Shown here piece after piece: positions 43,111-58,594 of a stretch of 64,000 bases of DNA. The stretch's first letter is position 1. Every line of letters starts with the position of its first letter. Source of the DNA: Bordetella parapertussis (GTDB taxonomy: Bacteria > Pseudomonadota > Gammaproteobacteria > Burkholderiales > SG8-41). The DNA is taken from assembly GCA_945885345.1 (NCBI GenBank), contig CAMCYP010000004.1:62001-126000 (forward strand), given 5' to 3'. Below the pieces are notes generated by a model. It worked only from the letters and a program-made list of their open reading frames with translations, had not been told where the DNA came from and did not search any database. Position numbers and translations under genes: made by a program.

Positions 43111-43138
43111 AAAAAACGCCGCTCATGCGGCGTTTTTT
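43111..43138. terminator. Bidirectional rho-independent terminator
   Basis: AAAAAACGCCGC-TCAT-GCGGCGTTTTTT: a perfect 12-bp stem with A and T runs. It ends the pip-FAH operon on the plus strand. It also overlaps the 3' end of the convergent PhaM-like gene on the minus strand. Confidence 0.93.
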
Positions 43139-43415
43139 ATTTCGGCTTTTTTTTCATGCTGTCGGCGGCAGCCTTGCCTGCCGATTGCAGACTCTCCAGT
43201 CCGGCCTTCTGCATTTCCAGCGTCTTGATGGTCATCTGGACCATGCCGGTGTTCATGGTCAGCCAGGTTTCAACCGCCTTCAGCTCGGCGATTTTTTTCT
43301 CCAGATCCTCGACATTCATCGTCGGCGCGATCATGCCCGGCATGGGAAAACCCATCGGGTTCCACATTTTCTGCATGAATTCGAAAAAATCCTTGGGTAC
43401 GTCTTGTTCGGCCAT
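43137..43415 (-). CDS. phaM: PhaM-like polyhydroxyalkanoate granule regulator (short form)
   Basis: A 92-residue protein matching the N-terminal part of PhaM: FFEFMQKMWNPMG, then PTMNVEDLEKKIAELKAVETWLTMNTGMVQMTIKTLEMQ, which forms helices. PhaM of Ralstonia activates PHA synthase and tethers granules to the nucleoid by a long Lys/Ala/Pro-rich tail. Here only a short KKKPK end remains, so DNA binding may be weak or supplied elsewhere. Confidence 0.8.
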   Translation of the reverse strand: MAEQDVPKDFFEFMQKMWNPMGFPMPGMIAPTMNVEDLEKKIAELKAVETWLTMNTGMVQMTIKTLEMQKAGLESLQSAGKAAADSMKKKPK

Positions 43416-43498: not shown

Positions 43499-43522
43499 AT
43501 GGCGCCCCGGTCAGGGCGCCAT
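43499..43522 (-). terminator. Terminator of the lytic transglycosylase gene
   Basis: ATGGCGCCC-CGGTCA-GGGCGCCAT, a 9-bp stem. On the minus strand it is followed by CTTTATTT. It lies 17 nt after the transglycosylase stop. Confidence 0.75.
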
Positions 43523-43539: not shown

Positions 43540-44292
43540 TTATTCGCCGAGCGGCGAATCGACATGGCGGGCGGCCACACGGATCCGCGGGGCCACCGGC
43601 GCCGGTTCGGCGAAGGCGGCAACAACGCGCTGCAGGCGCTGTTTCTCGCCCAGCACCTTGTTGGTGTAGGTGTCGTTGTCGTCACCGAGGGCGCCGGCGT
43701 ACATCTGCAGGGCGATGCTCACATTGCCGGTGCGGGACAGGTATTCGCGCAGGATACGGGTGCCGACGCGGATATTGGATTCCGGGTCGAACACGGATTT
43801 CTCACCGCCGAACTCGGCCAGCTTGTCCGCATGGAACTTCGGGATGATCTGCATCAGGCCCTTGGCGCCGACGCCGCTTTCGGCGATCGGGTTATAGCGC
43901 GACTCGACCGCAATCACTGCCATGATCAGCAGCGGATCCATATTGACCCGGGCAGCTTCGGCATGGGCGATCTGCACGAACTCCAGCGTCACGTCCTGCG
44001 ACACCTTGTAGCGCTTGGCCAGGAACTCGGCCAGCGCCTCGTGCCGGGCGGCGTCCGGATGCACGACCGGCGCGGGCTGCGGCAGCACACGGCCGGATAC
44101 GGCTTTGGCCTCACTCTCGACGGCGGCATAGGCAGATTCCAGCCATTGGACGCCGTAACGTTCGTGGAGCAGCAAAGCCAGGGCGGAGAAGCTGGCGATC
44201 AGCATCGCCAGGGTGACCATCTTGCGGATCCAGTGCAGCGATAGTGCTGCCTGTTCCTCGGGGGATATTTCTGAAATCGATTTTGCGAACAT
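43540..44292 (-). CDS. Membrane-anchored lytic transglycosylase (SLT domain)
   Basis: A 250-residue murein lytic transglycosylase. It has an N-terminal anchor (MVTLAMLIASFSALALLLH), a linker, then the SLT domain with catalytic Glu in IAVESRYNPIAESGVGAKGLMQIIP and the downstream NIRVGTRILREYLSRTGNVSIALQMYAGAL. It cleaves peptidoglycan to 1,6-anhydro products, which AmpD (also in this window) later processes. The upstream region carries a promoter and paired NrdR-like boxes of the same design as nrdA. The GGAGG ribosome site can pair with CTCC just upstream. Confidence 0.92.
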   Translation of the reverse strand: MFAKSISEISPEEQAALSLHWIRKMVTLAMLIASFSALALLLHERYGVQWLESAYAAVESEAKAVSGRVLPQPAPVVHPDAARHEALAEFLAKRYKVSQDVTLEFVQIAHAEAARVNMDPLLIMAVIAVESRYNPIAESGVGAKGLMQIIPKFHADKLAEFGGEKSVFDPESNIRVGTRILREYLSRTGNVSIALQMYAGALGDDNDTYTNKVLGEKQRLQRVVAAFAEPAPVAPRIRVAARHVDSPLGE

Positions 44293-44398
44293 GCAAAACC
44301 TCCTTTTGGGAGTGGCGCCGGCACGGGGCAGGCGCCTTCAGCGGTTGTTACCTCGCTACGGTAACGGGTGTCTCCTGGCTAACTCGGTCAGCCGACAA

Positions 44399-44414
44399 CC
44401 ACTATAGGTTGTGG
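44399..44414 (-). promoter_or_regulatory. NrdR-like box 1 upstream of lytic transglycosylase
   Basis: Minus strand CCACAACCTATAGTGG. It differs at one position from the box upstream of nrdA (CCACAACATATAGTGG) and fits the NrdR consensus (a/c)CACWAnATATWGTG(t/g) well. Confidence 0.6.
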
Positions 44415-44429
44415 GCCACTCAAAAAAAC

Positions 44430-44464
44430 TGGCTAATTCTAGGTGTTCAGACCCTGCGCCGCAA
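44430..44464 (-). promoter_or_regulatory. Promoter plus NrdR-like box 2 upstream of lytic transglycosylase
   Basis: -35 TTGCGG (44464-44459), 17-bp spacer, -10 TAGAAT (44441-44436). The -10 lies within a weaker second box (44430-44445), whose centre is 31 bp from that of box 1. Hexamers, spacing and box distance are identical to those upstream of nrdA. Confidence 0.6.
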
Positions 44465-44707
44465 CCCTGAAAACGGATTTTCATGGGGTTCGGGAAATAA
44501 GCCGGGGGCGGAGTGTAACGGCATTGCCCACCGCAATGCAATAAAAATATAAGTTATTGTTTTTAAACAATATTTAATACTTTTACCGCTCTTACACAGG
44601 GTCAAACAAGGTAAATCGCAGGGATTTGAGCCGCATTGCGGCAAAGAGTTCACCAGAGCCGGCCCGGAGTACCGAAGGTGAAGTAAAAACTTAATAAAAA
44701 CAATTAG

Positions 44708-44896
44708 TTATAATTCATCCTGGGGGTCGGACAAGGGCTGAATCTGGCGTGCTTCCCAAGTCCGGAGCGCAGTCTCGTAGTTAGTAAGTGCTTCCCAATA
44801 ACGGTCATAAACACAGGGGTCACAGCCGCTCTGGCAGCATTCCCAGGGCTCGGGCGCCGGCGGCTTTTCCGGTTTGGGATCGAAGTCAGCCGTCAT
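44708..44896 (-). CDS. Oxidoreductase-like domain small protein
   Basis: A 62-residue protein with the Oxidored-like (PF09791-type) pattern PEPWECCQSGCDPCVYDRYWEALTNYETAL. The ECC..GC..CV cysteines suggest a metal or redox site. It starts 3 nt after the upstream anti-sigma-like gene and so belongs to the sigma/anti-sigma transcription unit or lies just beyond it. Function is unknown. Confidence 0.82.
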   Translation of the reverse strand: MTADFDPKPEKPPAPEPWECCQSGCDPCVYDRYWEALTNYETALRTWEARQIQPLSDPQDEL

Positions 44897-44899
44897 GGC

Positions 44900-45736
44900 T
44901 CAGCGCAGATCCTCGGGCAATCGCGCCTCCGGAAAGCGGCGGCGGAACTCGGCCAGCAGCGCGTCGGCATCCGCGGTTTTGCCGCCGCGGCGCAGTTCGG
45001 CGATGCGCTGCAGCCATTTTTCCGGCGGTTCCTTGAGCAGGTCCTGCCACAGTGCGCTCTTCGCCGGCGCGGCCGACAAGGCTGCGGCCGGCGCCGCGGG
45101 CCTGGCCACCGATGCACCAGCACCGTTCGCTGCGTCAGCCATCGGCGCAGGCGCGGAACGCTGCAGCGGTTGCGGAGCGGCGTAGTCGCGCAGCGCGGGC
45201 GCCCGGTCTTCGGCCCGATTGGAGGATTCTGCCGCCATGGCCTTGGCGCGGGACTCGGTCGCCCCCCTCTCCGCTTCAGCCACACGGCCAGACAAGGCCG
45301 GTGCCGGGACGGGCGCCGCGTCCTGCACCACTGGCGCAGGCGGTGCCGTGACCGTCGGCGCAGCAGACCGGCGCTTGGGCACGGATTCCGGCACAGCCGC
45401 GGTTGGCGGTTCGGCGATCTCTCTTCGTTCGATCTCGCTTTGCATAGTCGCGGCCGGGGTTTGCGCCGGCGGCGGGATCAGGGATTCCGGACGATCAGCC
45501 CCCTGCTCGCGCATCAGGGTCACCACGCTGACCGACAACACCAGTACCGCAGCCAGCGAAACCGGCAGCGCCCAGCGACGGGCACCGGCGCGACGCGGAC
45601 CGGCGGCGACCTCGCGGCGCGCTGCGGCGCGGATCGCGTCATCGAGTTGTGCCGGCGGTTCTGCCGTCGTTCCGGCGCGGTATAGCGCCGCCAGTTGCGG
45701 ATCATTTTCCATATCGGGGCCGGGTTTCATTGCCAT
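44900..45736 (-). CDS. Probable anti-sigma factor, membrane anchored
   Basis: A 278-residue protein with a short cytosolic N-terminus (DPQLAALYRAGTTAEPPAQLDDAIRAAAR), one TM helix (WALPVSLAAVLVLSVSVVTLM), a long Ala/Pro-rich periplasmic linker and a C-terminal globular segment (WLQRIAELRRGGKTADADALLAEFRRRFP). Its ATG overlaps the sigma factor stop by 10 nt. Topology and position support an anti-sigma role, although no zinc-binding HxxxCxxC motif is present. Confidence 0.75.
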   Translation of the reverse strand: MAMKPGPDMENDPQLAALYRAGTTAEPPAQLDDAIRAAARREVAAGPRRAGARRWALPVSLAAVLVLSVSVVTLMREQGADRPESLIPPPAQTPAATMQSEIERREIAEPPTAAVPESVPKRRSAAPTVTAPPAPVVQDAAPVPAPALSGRVAEAERGATESRAKAMAAESSNRAEDRAPALRDYAAPQPLQRSAPAPMADAANGAGASVARPAAPAAALSAAPAKSALWQDLLKEPPEKWLQRIAELRRGGKTADADALLAEFRRRFPEARLPEDLR

Positions 45737-54295: not shown

Positions 54296-55408
54296 TCAAT
54301 CCCAGGACAGTGCACCTCCGGTCTGGTACTCGATGACGCGGGTTTCAAAGAAGTTGCGTTCTTTTTTCAGGTCGATCATTTCCGCCATCCACGGGAAGGG
54401 ATTGGTCGCGCCTTCGAACAGCACTTCCAGCCCGATCTGCTGGGCACGGCGGTTGGCGATGAAACGCAGGTATTCCTTGAACATCGCGGCATTGAGGCCG
54501 AGCACGCCGCGCGGCATGGTGTCCTCGGCGTATTTGTATTCGAGCTCCACGCCCTTGTGGAACAGTTCGCGCAGTTCTTCGCGGAATTCCGCGGTCCACA
54601 GGTGCGGGTTCTCCATCTTGATCGTGTTGATCAGGTCGATGCCGAAATTGCAGTGCATGGATTCGTCGCGCAGGATGTACTGGTACTGCTCGGCGGCGCC
54701 GGTCATCTTGTTCTGCCGGCCCAGCGCGAGGATCTGCGCAAACCCGACGTAGAAGAACAGGCCTTCCATCAGGCAGGCAAACACGATCAGGCTTTTCAGC
54801 AGCTTCTGGTCGTTTTCCGGTGTGCCGGTCTTGAAGGTGGGATCGGTCAGCACGTCGATGAACGGGATCAGGAACTCATCCTTGTCACGGATCGACGAAA
54901 CTTCGTGATAGGCGTTGAAGATTTCGCTTTCGTTCAGCCCCAGGCTTTCCACGATGTACTGGTAGGCGTGGGTATGGATCGCCTCTTCAAACGCCTGGCG
55001 CAGCAGGTACTGCCGGCATTCCGGCGCAGTGATGTGGCGGTAGGTGCCGAGCACGATGTTGTTCGCCGCCAGGGAGTCGGCAGTGACAAAAAATCCGAGG
55101 TTGCGCTTGACGACACGGCGCTCGTCTTCAGTCAGGCCGTTGGGGTTTTTCCAGAGTTCGATGTCGCGGCTCATCTGGATTTCCTGCGGCATCCAGTGAT
55201 TGGCGCAGGCGGAGAGGTACTTGTCCCAAGCCCACTTGTATTTGAACGGTACCAACTGATTGACGTCGGTACTGCCGTTGATGATGCGCTTGTCGGCAAC
55301 ATTGACGCGCCGCAGTTCTTCTTCCACCGGATTTTTCGAGGGTGCGCGGTCGCCCATCACAGGCTGTCTGACCAGCCCGGCAGCGCCCGATTCTTCAAAT
55401 TGCAACAT
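54296..55408 (-). CDS. nrdB: Ribonucleoside-diphosphate reductase class Ia beta subunit
   Basis: A 370-residue R2 subunit that houses the di-iron/tyrosyl radical cofactor. Ligand-bearing helices are visible: [40 protein letters not shown] with E and H ligands, and the later [18 protein letters not shown] helix. An N-terminal extension ([13 protein letters not shown]...[19 protein letters not shown]) is typical of betaproteobacterial NrdB. It is downstream of nrdA, 191 bp apart, under the nrdA promoter. Confidence 0.95.
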
Positions 55409-55599: not shown

Positions 55600-58461
55600 C
55601 TACTGACATGCCTCGCATTCGGGATCGAGGATCGAACACACCTTGGGTTGCTCCTCCCCGTTCACGCCGCCATCCGATGACACTGCATTCAACTGGCCCG
55701 CCTTGGAGGTCGACTTCTCGGTGGAAGTCGCACCCAGTGTGCGCAGGTAGTAGGTCGTTTTCAGGCCGCGCAGCCAGGCGAGTTTGTAGGTGTCGTCCAG
55801 CTTCTTGCCCGACGCGCCCGCCATGTAGATATTCAGCGACTGTGACTGGTCGATCCACTTCTGCCGGCGCGCCGCACATTCCACCATCCAGCTGGCATCC
55901 ATCTCGAACGCCGTGGCATAGAGGCTGCGCACGTCCGGCGGCACGCGGTCGATCTTCGACAGCGAACCGTCAAAGTATTTGAGATCGGCGACCATCACCT
56001 CGTCCCACAGGTTGAGTTTCTTCAGGTCGCGCACCAGGAACTCGTTGACGACCGTGAACTCGCCCGACAGGTTGGATTTGACGTAAAGGTTCTGGTAAGT
56101 CGGCTCAATGCACTGCGACAGGCCGGTGATGTTGGCAATGGTTGCCGTCGGCGCAATGGCAATGCAGTTCGAATTGCGGATGCCGACGCGCTGGATGCGG
56201 CTGCGCAGGCTGTCCCAGTCCAGCTTCGTGGACATGTCGCATTCGACATAACCGCCACGCTCTTCGGCCAGCACTTTCAGCGAATCCAGCGGCAGGATGC
56301 CGCGATCCCACAACGAACCCTTGAACGTCGAGTACGGGCCGCGCTCTTCCGCCAGGTCGGATGAAGCCGAATAGGCGGTGTAGGTCACCTGTTCCATCGA
56401 ACGGTCGGCGAACTCCACCGCCGCCGGCGAACCGTAGGGAATGCGCAGCATGTGCAGGCAGTCCTGGAAGCCCATGATGCCGAGGCCGACCGGACGGTGC
56501 TTGAAGTTGGAATTGCGCGCCTTGTTGACGTTGTAGAAGTTGAGGTCGATCACGTTGTCGAGCATGCGCATGCCGGTACCCACCGTACGCTTCAGTTTTT
56601 CCATGTCGAGGAGACCGGTAGACAGATCGAGGTGCGCCGGCATGTTGACCGATGCCAGGTTGCACACGGCGATTTCGTCAGGGCCGGTGTTCAACGTGAT
56701 TTCCGTGCACAGGTTCGAGCTGTGCACGACGCCGACGTGCTGCTGCGGCGAACGCAGGTTGCAGGGATCCTTGAAAGTGATCCACGGGTGCCCGGTTTCG
56801 AACAGCATGGTCAGCATCTTGCGCCACAGCTGGTTGGCGGGAACCTTCTTGTAGAGCTTCATTTCGCCGCGGGTGCACATCGCCTCGTACTCGACATAAG
56901 CTTTTTCGAAAGCCTTGCCGAATTTCTCGTGCAGATCCGGAACGTCCGAGGGCGAGAACAGCGTCCATTCGCCACCTTCCATGACACGCTTCATGAACAG
57001 ATCGGGAATCCAGTTCGATGTGTTCATGTCATGGGTGCGACGGCGGTCGTCGCCGGTGTTCTTGCGCAGCTCGAGGAATTCCTCGATGTCGAGATGCCAT
57101 GTTTCGAGGTACGAGCACACCGCACCCTTGCGTTTGCCGCCCTGGTTCACCGCAACGGCCGTGTCGTTGACGACCTTCAGGAACGGCACGACGCCCTGCG
57201 ACTTGCCGTTGGTGCCCTTGATATAGGCGCCGAGCGCGCGCACCGGGGTCCAGTCGTTGCCGATGCCGCCGGCATACTTCTGCAGCATCGCGTTTTCCTT
57301 GATGGCTTCATAGATGCCGTCGAGGTCATCGGACACGGTGGTCAGATAGCAACTGGCGAGTTGCGAGCGGCGCGTGCCGGAATTGAACAGCGTCGGGGTT
57401 GAGCTCATCAGGTCAAAGCTCGACAGCACGTTGTAGAACTCGATTGCGCGCGCTTCGCGCTGACTTTCCGGTTCGTTCAATGCGAGACCCATCGCCACGC
57501 GCATGAAAAACACCTGGGGCAGCTCGATGCGCTGGCCTTCGATGTGCAGGAAGTAACGGTCATACAGAATCTGCAGGCCGAGATAGGTGAACTTGAGGTC
57601 GCGCTGTGCATCCAGCGCGGCACCCAGCGCCTTCATGTCGTAATGACCAAGGCGCTCGTCCAGCAGTTCGGCAGCGATGCCCTTCTTGATGAATTCCGGC
57701 AGGTAGGCGGCGTAACGCGTTGTCATCTCCGTCTGCGTTACTTCTTCACCCAGCGTCTCCAGGCGCATCGTGTGCATCAGCAGGCGGGCGGTCGCATAGC
57801 TGTAGCCCGGATCCTGCTCAATCAGGCCGCGAGCGGCGAGGATCAGCGACTTGCGAACCTCGTTGATAGGCACGCCATCATAGAGGTCGCGCTGCATCGC
57901 ATCGAGAATGGGCTGCGCGCTGACATCGCGGCCCAGCCCGGCGCAGGCGCTTTCCACCAGCGCGGTGATACGCTCAACGTCCAGCGGGCGGGTGACGCCG
58001 CCGTCGGTGACATTGATGACATGGGCTTTCTGCGCCACCGCAGCGGGTTGCGCTTCGCGCTGGCGCGCGCGCTCCCGGGTACGCTCCTCGCGATAAAGCA
58101 CGTAGGAACGGGCCACGTGGTGTTCACCCATGCGCATCAGCGCGAGTTCCACCTGGTCCTGGATGTCTTCGATATGGAAGGTGCCGCCGGAGGGCTGGCG
58201 GCGCATCAGTGCACCCACCACGCTGTCCGTCAGCGCCGCGACTTGTTCACGCACCCGCGCCGAAGCGGCACCCTGGCCGCCGTTGACCGCGATGAAGGCC
58301 TTGGTCAGTGCGATGGCGATTTTCGCCGGCTCAAAACCCACCACCGAGCCATTGCGGCGGATGATTTTGTACTGGGCATATAACGCCTCCCGTGCGGCCT
58401 CCTCGGCAGGGGTGGCTTGCGGAAGAACGCGGGATTGGGTGGACTCTGTGGCGACTTGCAT
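55600..58461 (-). CDS. nrdA: Ribonucleoside-diphosphate reductase class Ia alpha subunit
   Basis: A 953-residue R1 subunit that reduces NDPs to dNDPs. The N-terminus holds two ATP-cone regions: KIIRRNGSVVGFEPAKIAIAL with a RSYVLYREERTRERA tail, then HVINVTDGGVTRPLDVERITALV. ATP-cones sense dATP. Catalytic Cys are in QLASCYLTT and SSNLCTEITLNT. The C-terminal redox pair is CEACQ. ATG 58461 follows AAGGAGTAACG; the track start is 22 codons too far upstream. The length is close to two-cone NrdA of Pseudomonas. Confidence 0.96.
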   Translation of the reverse strand: MQVATESTQSRVLPQATPAEEAAREALYAQYKIIRRNGSVVGFEPAKIAIALTKAFIAVNGGQGAASARVREQVAALTDSVVGALMRRQPSGGTFHIEDIQDQVELALMRMGEHHVARSYVLYREERTRERARQREAQPAAVAQKAHVINVTDGGVTRPLDVERITALVESACAGLGRDVSAQPILDAMQRDLYDGVPINEVRKSLILAARGLIEQDPGYSYATARLLMHTMRLETLGEEVTQTEMTTRYAAYLPEFIKKGIAAELLDERLGHYDMKALGAALDAQRDLKFTYLGLQILYDRYFLHIEGQRIELPQVFFMRVAMGLALNEPESQREARAIEFYNVLSSFDLMSSTPTLFNSGTRRSQLASCYLTTVSDDLDGIYEAIKENAMLQKYAGGIGNDWTPVRALGAYIKGTNGKSQGVVPFLKVVNDTAVAVNQGGKRKGAVCSYLETWHLDIEEFLELRKNTGDDRRRTHDMNTSNWIPDLFMKRVMEGGEWTLFSPSDVPDLHEKFGKAFEKAYVEYEAMCTRGEMKLYKKVPANQLWRKMLTMLFETGHPWITFKDPCNLRSPQQHVGVVHSSNLCTEITLNTGPDEIAVCNLASVNMPAHLDLSTGLLDMEKLKRTVGTGMRMLDNVIDLNFYNVNKARNSNFKHRPVGLGIMGFQDCLHMLRIPYGSPAAVEFADRSMEQVTYTAYSASSDLAEERGPYSTFKGSLWDRGILPLDSLKVLAEERGGYVECDMSTKLDWDSLRSRIQRVGIRNSNCIAIAPTATIANITGLSQCIEPTYQNLYVKSNLSGEFTVVNEFLVRDLKKLNLWDEVMVADLKYFDGSLSKIDRVPPDVRSLYATAFEMDASWMVECAARRQKWIDQSQSLNIYMAGASGKKLDDTYKLAWLRGLKTTYYLRTLGATSTEKSTSKAGQLNAVSSDGGVNGEEQPKVCSILDPECEACQ

Positions 58462-58528
58462 ATCGTTACTCCTTGATTTTTTTAGGTTTTCTAACCCCCA
58501 GGAACAGCAACGCTCCCAGCCCGTCAAC

Positions 58529-58544
58529 CACTATATGTTGTGGT
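58529..58544 (-). promoter_or_regulatory. NrdR box 1 upstream of nrdA
   Basis: Minus strand CCACAACATATAGTGG, flanked symmetrically by TCAA and TTGA. It is close to the NrdR consensus palindrome and lies 68 bp from the nrdA ATG. NrdR represses ribonucleotide reductase genes when dATP is high. Confidence 0.75.
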
Positions 58545-58559
58545 TGACTCATTAATTTC

Positions 58560-58594
58560 GACCAATTCTAGTGGCCGTGTTTTGAATCCGCAAT
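58560..58594 (-). promoter_or_regulatory. nrdA promoter with NrdR box 2
   Basis: -35 TTGCGG (58594-58589), 17-bp spacer, -10 TAGAAT (58571-58566). A weaker second box (58560-58575) covers the -10, centred exactly 31 bp from box 1. Paired boxes about three helical turns apart are the usual NrdR arrangement. Confidence 0.7.

Follow-up and report, generated by a model that had tools for sequence, protein, structure and literature searches.

A predicted paired-box NrdR promoter in front of a lytic transglycosylase gene in one family of Burkholderiales

Introduction

NrdR is described as a repressor specific to ribonucleotide reductase (RNR) genes, whose dATP/ATP-loaded tetramers bind two DNA boxes about three helical turns apart and repress these genes as dATP rises (PMC9110341). 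In the Streptomyces coelicolor protein, the conserved GC pairs of each box are recognised by residues D15 and R17 (PMC9110341); these pairs correspond to C4 and G13 when each box is written as a 16-mer. High-affinity binding in other species requires both boxes, and the favoured distance between them is three helical turns, with four (spacer of 24-27) also tolerated; an E. coli reporter was repressed with a spacer of 26 ± 1 bp (PMC12051234). Reconstruction of the NrdR regulons of Proteobacteria gave 186 regulons with about 3.2 sites per genome, devoted to deoxyribonucleotide synthesis, and no gene for a transglycosylase, for murein or for the cell wall is mentioned in the main text of that study (Leyn et al., 2016; PMC5343134). 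In the literature that we searched, the only experimentally supported target outside the RNR genes is topA of Pseudomonas aeruginosa, which carries a single box and is activated (PMC4409342). Our searches of the literature for NrdR together with transglycosylase, and for ribonucleotide reductase together with lytic transglycosylase, found nothing relevant.

Here, we describe a promoter within a stretch of 64,000 nucleotides (the window) that resembles the NrdR-controlled nrdAB promoters of proteobacterial class I RNRs in its -35 and -10 hexamers, in a first box lying on the -10, in a second box 31 bp downstream, and in its box sequence, CCACAAC(A/C)TATAGTGG. It differs from them in that its first box is weaker and that the gene behind it, slt, encodes a murein transglycosylase. 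As with topA, the gene is not an RNR gene, with NrdR control being predicted at slt; unlike topA, it has a full box pair in the geometry of repression and belongs to a different cellular process.

Results and discussion

The slt promoter and its nrdA counterpart

All window features given below lie on the minus strand. The predicted slt promoter P1 consists of a -35 hexamer TTGCGG (44459..44464), of which TTGC is kept in nearly all genomes compared, a 17-bp spacer, and a -10 hexamer TAGAAT (44436..44441) that is invariant in the alignment of the window's genus. A weak predicted NrdR box 1, CACCTAGAATTAGCCA (44430..44445), covers the -10 in the same register as box 1 of nrdA, while the strong predicted box 2, CCACAACCTATAGTGG (44399..44414), which was recovered by pattern searches, is centred exactly 31 bp from it. 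Box 2 has C4 and G13 and is a 16-bp palindrome that fits (A/C)CAC...GTG(T/G), here in the form CCAC...GTGG. The nrdA promoter has the same build, with a -35 TTGCGG (58588..58593), a -10 TAGAAT (58570-58565) at 17 bp from it, box 1 CCACTAGAATTGGTCG over the -10 (58559..58574) and box 2 CCACAACATATAGTGG, likewise found by pattern searches (58528..58543), the centres again being exactly 31 bp apart. C4 and G13 are present in both boxes at both genes; however, box 1 of slt in the window's genus lacks the CAC arm and is weaker than its nrdA counterpart. The hexamers, spacer, weak box on the -10 and palindrome 31 bp away had been pointed out at both genes in an earlier note on this DNA, and our analysis bears out that description.

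Behind these promoters are nrdA (55600..58461; class I RNR alpha subunit by Pfam and by NCBIfam PRK07207, 1722 bits) and nrdB (54296..55408; beta subunit, Pfam PF00268 and NCBIfam PRK07209), and slt (43540..44292; Pfam PF01464, E 2.4e-19), which encodes a membrane-anchored lytic transglycosylase of the SLT family with 250 aa. From its sequence, the slt product has a predicted catalytic Glu130 in AVESRYNPIAES, a GLMQ motif and one N-terminal transmembrane stretch; in an alignment of 16 homologues, E130, S131 and G145-Q148 are invariant. Its catalytic domain matches the structures of MltC, EmtA and Slt70, and by domain, ES-motif Glu and GLMQ the predicted protein is a family 1 lytic transglycosylase. 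Compared with those three enzymes, it shares the SLT catalytic domain, catalytic Glu and GLMQ, but is a 250-residue protein with a single N-terminal membrane anchor, and no NCBIfam equivalog cut-off is reached. The gene is preceded by a Shine-Dalgarno sequence AGGAGG that is invariant in the genus (44299..44304). It is probably a single-gene transcription unit, because it is followed by a hairpin resembling an intrinsic terminator (43499..43522; 10-bp stem with 7 GC, T-rich tail); two such hairpins were found in the region against 1.1 expected. The next gene on the same strand encodes a PhaM-family granule protein.

The regulator itself is encoded once in the genome (G000:C24:42719), between glyA-like and ribD-like frames. 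This nrdR gene is canonical as judged from sequence: it scores 198 bits with TIGR00244, and its product matches solved NrdR structures and has D15 and R17. No NrdR box was recognised upstream of nrdR or of the class II RNR gene in the same genome. Since the latter, an NrdJ-like gene at G000:C31:10184-11821, lacks a recognisable upstream box, NrdR control here seems limited to the class I genes and slt.

Rarity and exclusivity of the promoter pattern

A search of the 64-kb window for the strong box with up to three mismatches returned two matches, both perfect, against 0.28 ± 0.53 expected. Over the whole genome (3.59 Mb, 69 contigs), with up to two mismatches allowed, the slt and nrdA sites were joined by one site with two mismatches, which leaves these two as the only sites of such quality. 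We then combined the -10 with the box in a full pattern, TAGAATT-N21-CNC-N5-ATNGTGG, and used the reversed pattern as control. The full pattern matched twice in the window's own genome and 59 times in 74 genomes of the family, and the reversed control gave no match in the same 74 genomes. Judged by where NrdA and SLT matches lie, 57 of the 59 stand before nrdA (34) or slt (23). In the window's own genome, the genome-wide scan that the earlier note had proposed places the pair at slt and nrdA only. Named records among the matches are uncultured Betaproteobacteria or Burkholderiales assemblies, for example Ga0077527 and RIFCSPLOWO2_02_FULL_67_26.

The two remaining matches are a contig end without a readable gene (G056) and a site in a fragmented assembly, G019:C342:1800-1842, at which an NrdR promoter of the nrdA type, its box CCACTATATATAGTGG being perfect, has a tRNA downstream in place of nrdA. 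The latter is either a misassembly or an insertion.

In 399 genomes drawn from the whole order Burkholderiales, every match outside the family, whether at 31 or at 32 bp, lies before nrdA; the scan at the 32-bp spacing gave eight matches, every one at nrdA. Because these matches outside the family are all nrdA sites, the predicted pair at slt is specific to one Burkholderiales family, whereas that at nrdA is general.

Conservation and spacing across the family

Conservation in front of orthologous transglycosylase genes, on which the earlier note had let its proposal depend, proved widespread. We read the upstream regions of 66 slt orthologues from nine genera of this uncultured family (the window's own and g2 to g9), many of them from fragmented metagenome assemblies, and found the box pair in 55; of the 20 from the window's genus, 19 have it. 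Elsewhere the pair occurs in both members of g2, one of g3, 2/4 of g4, one of g5, 11/14 of g7, 8/9 of g8 and 11/12 of g9. It is therefore kept in eight of nine genera, and the 11 orthologues that lost it include all three readable members of g6. Box 2 has C4 in all 55 box-bearing promoters and G13 in 54. The CAC arm of box 1 that is absent from the window's genus is found in most members of g7 and g8, though those of g7 lack G13. Moreover, the -10, the box and the 31-bp register, together with TTGC at the -35, are identical at slt and nrdA in every genome compared that has both 31-bp promoters.

Upstream of SLT relatives in Massilia, Burkholderia and other lineages, box scores were no better than background; the score threshold was set after seeing the data, with outgroup scores stopping at 15 and members starting at 17. 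In a tree of 120 SLT proteins, which came from a quick search and has some long branches, the box-bearing genes all fall within one clade of 70. This distribution is compatible with one gain of the predicted promoter and about seven losses.

Within the genus alignment, the boxes stand out as islands of conservation between drifting flanks. The -10 and the core of box 1 are conserved in 100% of columns and box 2 in 96%, compared with 70% for the spacer between -35 and -10 and 70% for the 200 columns upstream. Conservation is likewise high, at 93%, in the strip that separates the boxes, and the constraint therefore extends beyond the boxes alone.

Most genera have the slt boxes 31 bp apart, whereas g9 and g3 have them at 39-41 bp and one genome at 33 bp. 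In four g9 genomes, nrdA retains 31 bp while the slt pair is lengthened. At 40 bp from centre to centre, the slt pair has a 24-bp spacer, at the edge of the second NrdR optimum. The shift in g9 and g3 amounts to a natural experiment on NrdR box spacing.

The slt leader and upstream region

The slt leader folds better than shuffled sequences (z -3.3), and a scan of 44100-44900 against Rfam gave no known RNA family. It contains an inverted repeat GTTACCGTAGCGAGGTAAC (GTTACC-N7-GGTAAC; 44347..44365), for which 95% of columns are invariant in the genus; it has only one other match in the genome and forms in both the MFE and the centroid fold. A similar leader hairpin is also retained by members that have lost the NrdR boxes, for example in g6. 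We regard the repeat as a candidate leader hairpin or operator.

Further downstream, an inverted repeat with an 8-bp stem, GGTTTTGC-ATGTTC-GCAAAATC, of the general form GGTTTTGC-ATGNNN-GCAAAATC and unique in the genome, encloses the start codon in its loop (44279..44300). Over 34 sequences, 100% of cells in the stem are paired, compared with 28-52% when the stem is slid, and the few variants are A-U or G-U; these sequences were chosen by a pattern already containing most of the stem, which is too constant for compensatory change. The candidate RNA reading of this hairpin thus rests on conservation and not on covariation. The ATG shifts its position within the loop among genera, with the stem unchanged. 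When we searched 120 genomes of the order for the start-codon hairpin, the matches were slt of the window's genus only. The hairpin is conserved family-wide, also in members that have lost the NrdR boxes, and is a candidate element of translational control.

Upstream of P1 lies a possible second promoter, P2 (TTGCAT-18-TACACT; 44512..44541), with a PhaR-like site of the TGCRNYGCA kind over its -35, the window's own copy, TGCATTGCGG, being one letter off. The Bradyrhizobium PhaR site TGCRNYGCASMA has TGCRNYGCA as its core (PMC6201568). The palindrome occurs in 37 of 60 orthologous slt upstream regions, against 0 for the control pattern, and in most of the 37 about 215-240 bp separate it from the ribosome-binding site downstream. 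This PhaR-like palindrome is upstream of slt, while the phaM-family gene lies downstream (43137-43415). We treat the putative PhaR-like site as a lead.

Regulatory interpretation and alternatives

We put at about 0.8 the probability that slt is a genuine, lineage-specific and conserved NrdR target, co-repressed with nrdAB at high dATP. From what was computed, namely the sites, their register, conservation and exclusivity and the canonical NrdR gene, we infer binding of NrdR at slt, repression and not activation, the response to dATP, and the purpose. Counting against this reading are the weak box 1 at slt, the loss of the pair in 11 of the 66 orthologues, and P2, which could bypass NrdR. The earlier note had left two interpretations side by side. 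Its proposal that NrdR controls slt together with nrdA is strongly backed by the conservation, exclusivity, register and NrdR gene, whereas its other suggestion, that slt had captured a duplicated nrd promoter, finds no support: outside the -35, -10 and boxes, identity is 29.5% between the slt and nrdA promoters within a genome, 28.5% between those of different genomes, and 25.6 ± 8.0% for shuffled sequences. The comparison accordingly shows no sign of a recent promoter duplication, the two promoters sharing functional elements only, although an old event at the base of the family, since faded, may have occurred.

The same comparison bears on the idea that the slt promoter is a captured nrdA copy that now acts constitutively, its boxes being relics of no regulatory effect. 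In favour of this idea, nrdA and slt lie close to each other, at about 14 kb in the window and on one contig in many relatives; with no similarity left outside the functional elements, and with box 2, which a constitutive promoter could dispense with, conserved across genera, we consider it very improbable. Just as little weight goes to a reading of the strong palindrome as part of a structured slt leader RNA, or as the site of another factor, in place of an NrdR operator. The palindrome does lie downstream of the predicted start in an unusually structured leader with two other conserved hairpins, and in g9 it is extended to AACCACTA..TAGTGGTT. However, this 16-mer, at one and the same distance from an identical -10, precedes nrdA and slt alone, and nrdA alone beyond the family, and an RNA element would need no 31-bp register in common with nrdA. 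Somewhat less improbable, though still unlikely, is that NrdR, once bound at the slt promoter, activates or only tunes it, given that topA, the one non-RNR target shown by experiment that we found, is activated (PMC4409342). The single box of topA is set against the paired arrangement at slt, in which box 1 covers the -10 as at the repressed nrd promoters, and we favour repression over activation because this paired geometry sits on the -10.

Under the favoured reading of slt as a repressed NrdR target, high dATP would load NrdR with dATP and ATP and promote its assembly into tetramers. A tetramer would then bind the slt pair, occupying box 1 on the -10 and also box 2, which lies in the transcribed leader three helical turns further on, and would block RNA polymerase at P1, as at nrdAB. 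As DNA synthesis drains dATP, nrdAB and slt would both be derepressed, and synthesis of the murein-cleaving transglycosylase would rise with that of DNA precursors when demand for dNTPs is high. The purpose may be the coupling of wall growth or septation to replication. Wall remodelling is, on the sequence evidence, probably switched by NrdR jointly with DNA-precursor supply. A wider scheme, which we offer only tentatively and think doubtful, is that dATP directly gates the murein transglycosylase through NrdR, with a storage-polymer input from the PhaR-like operator and a translational one from the start-codon hairpin; a single wall enzyme would then integrate the supply of DNA precursors with carbon status.

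The coupling of envelope growth to dNTP pools is usually attributed to the division machinery and to replication checkpoints. If the NrdR reading is true, a conserved promoter with paired NrdR boxes at a cell-wall hydrolase gene would connect the two directly, at the level of transcription.
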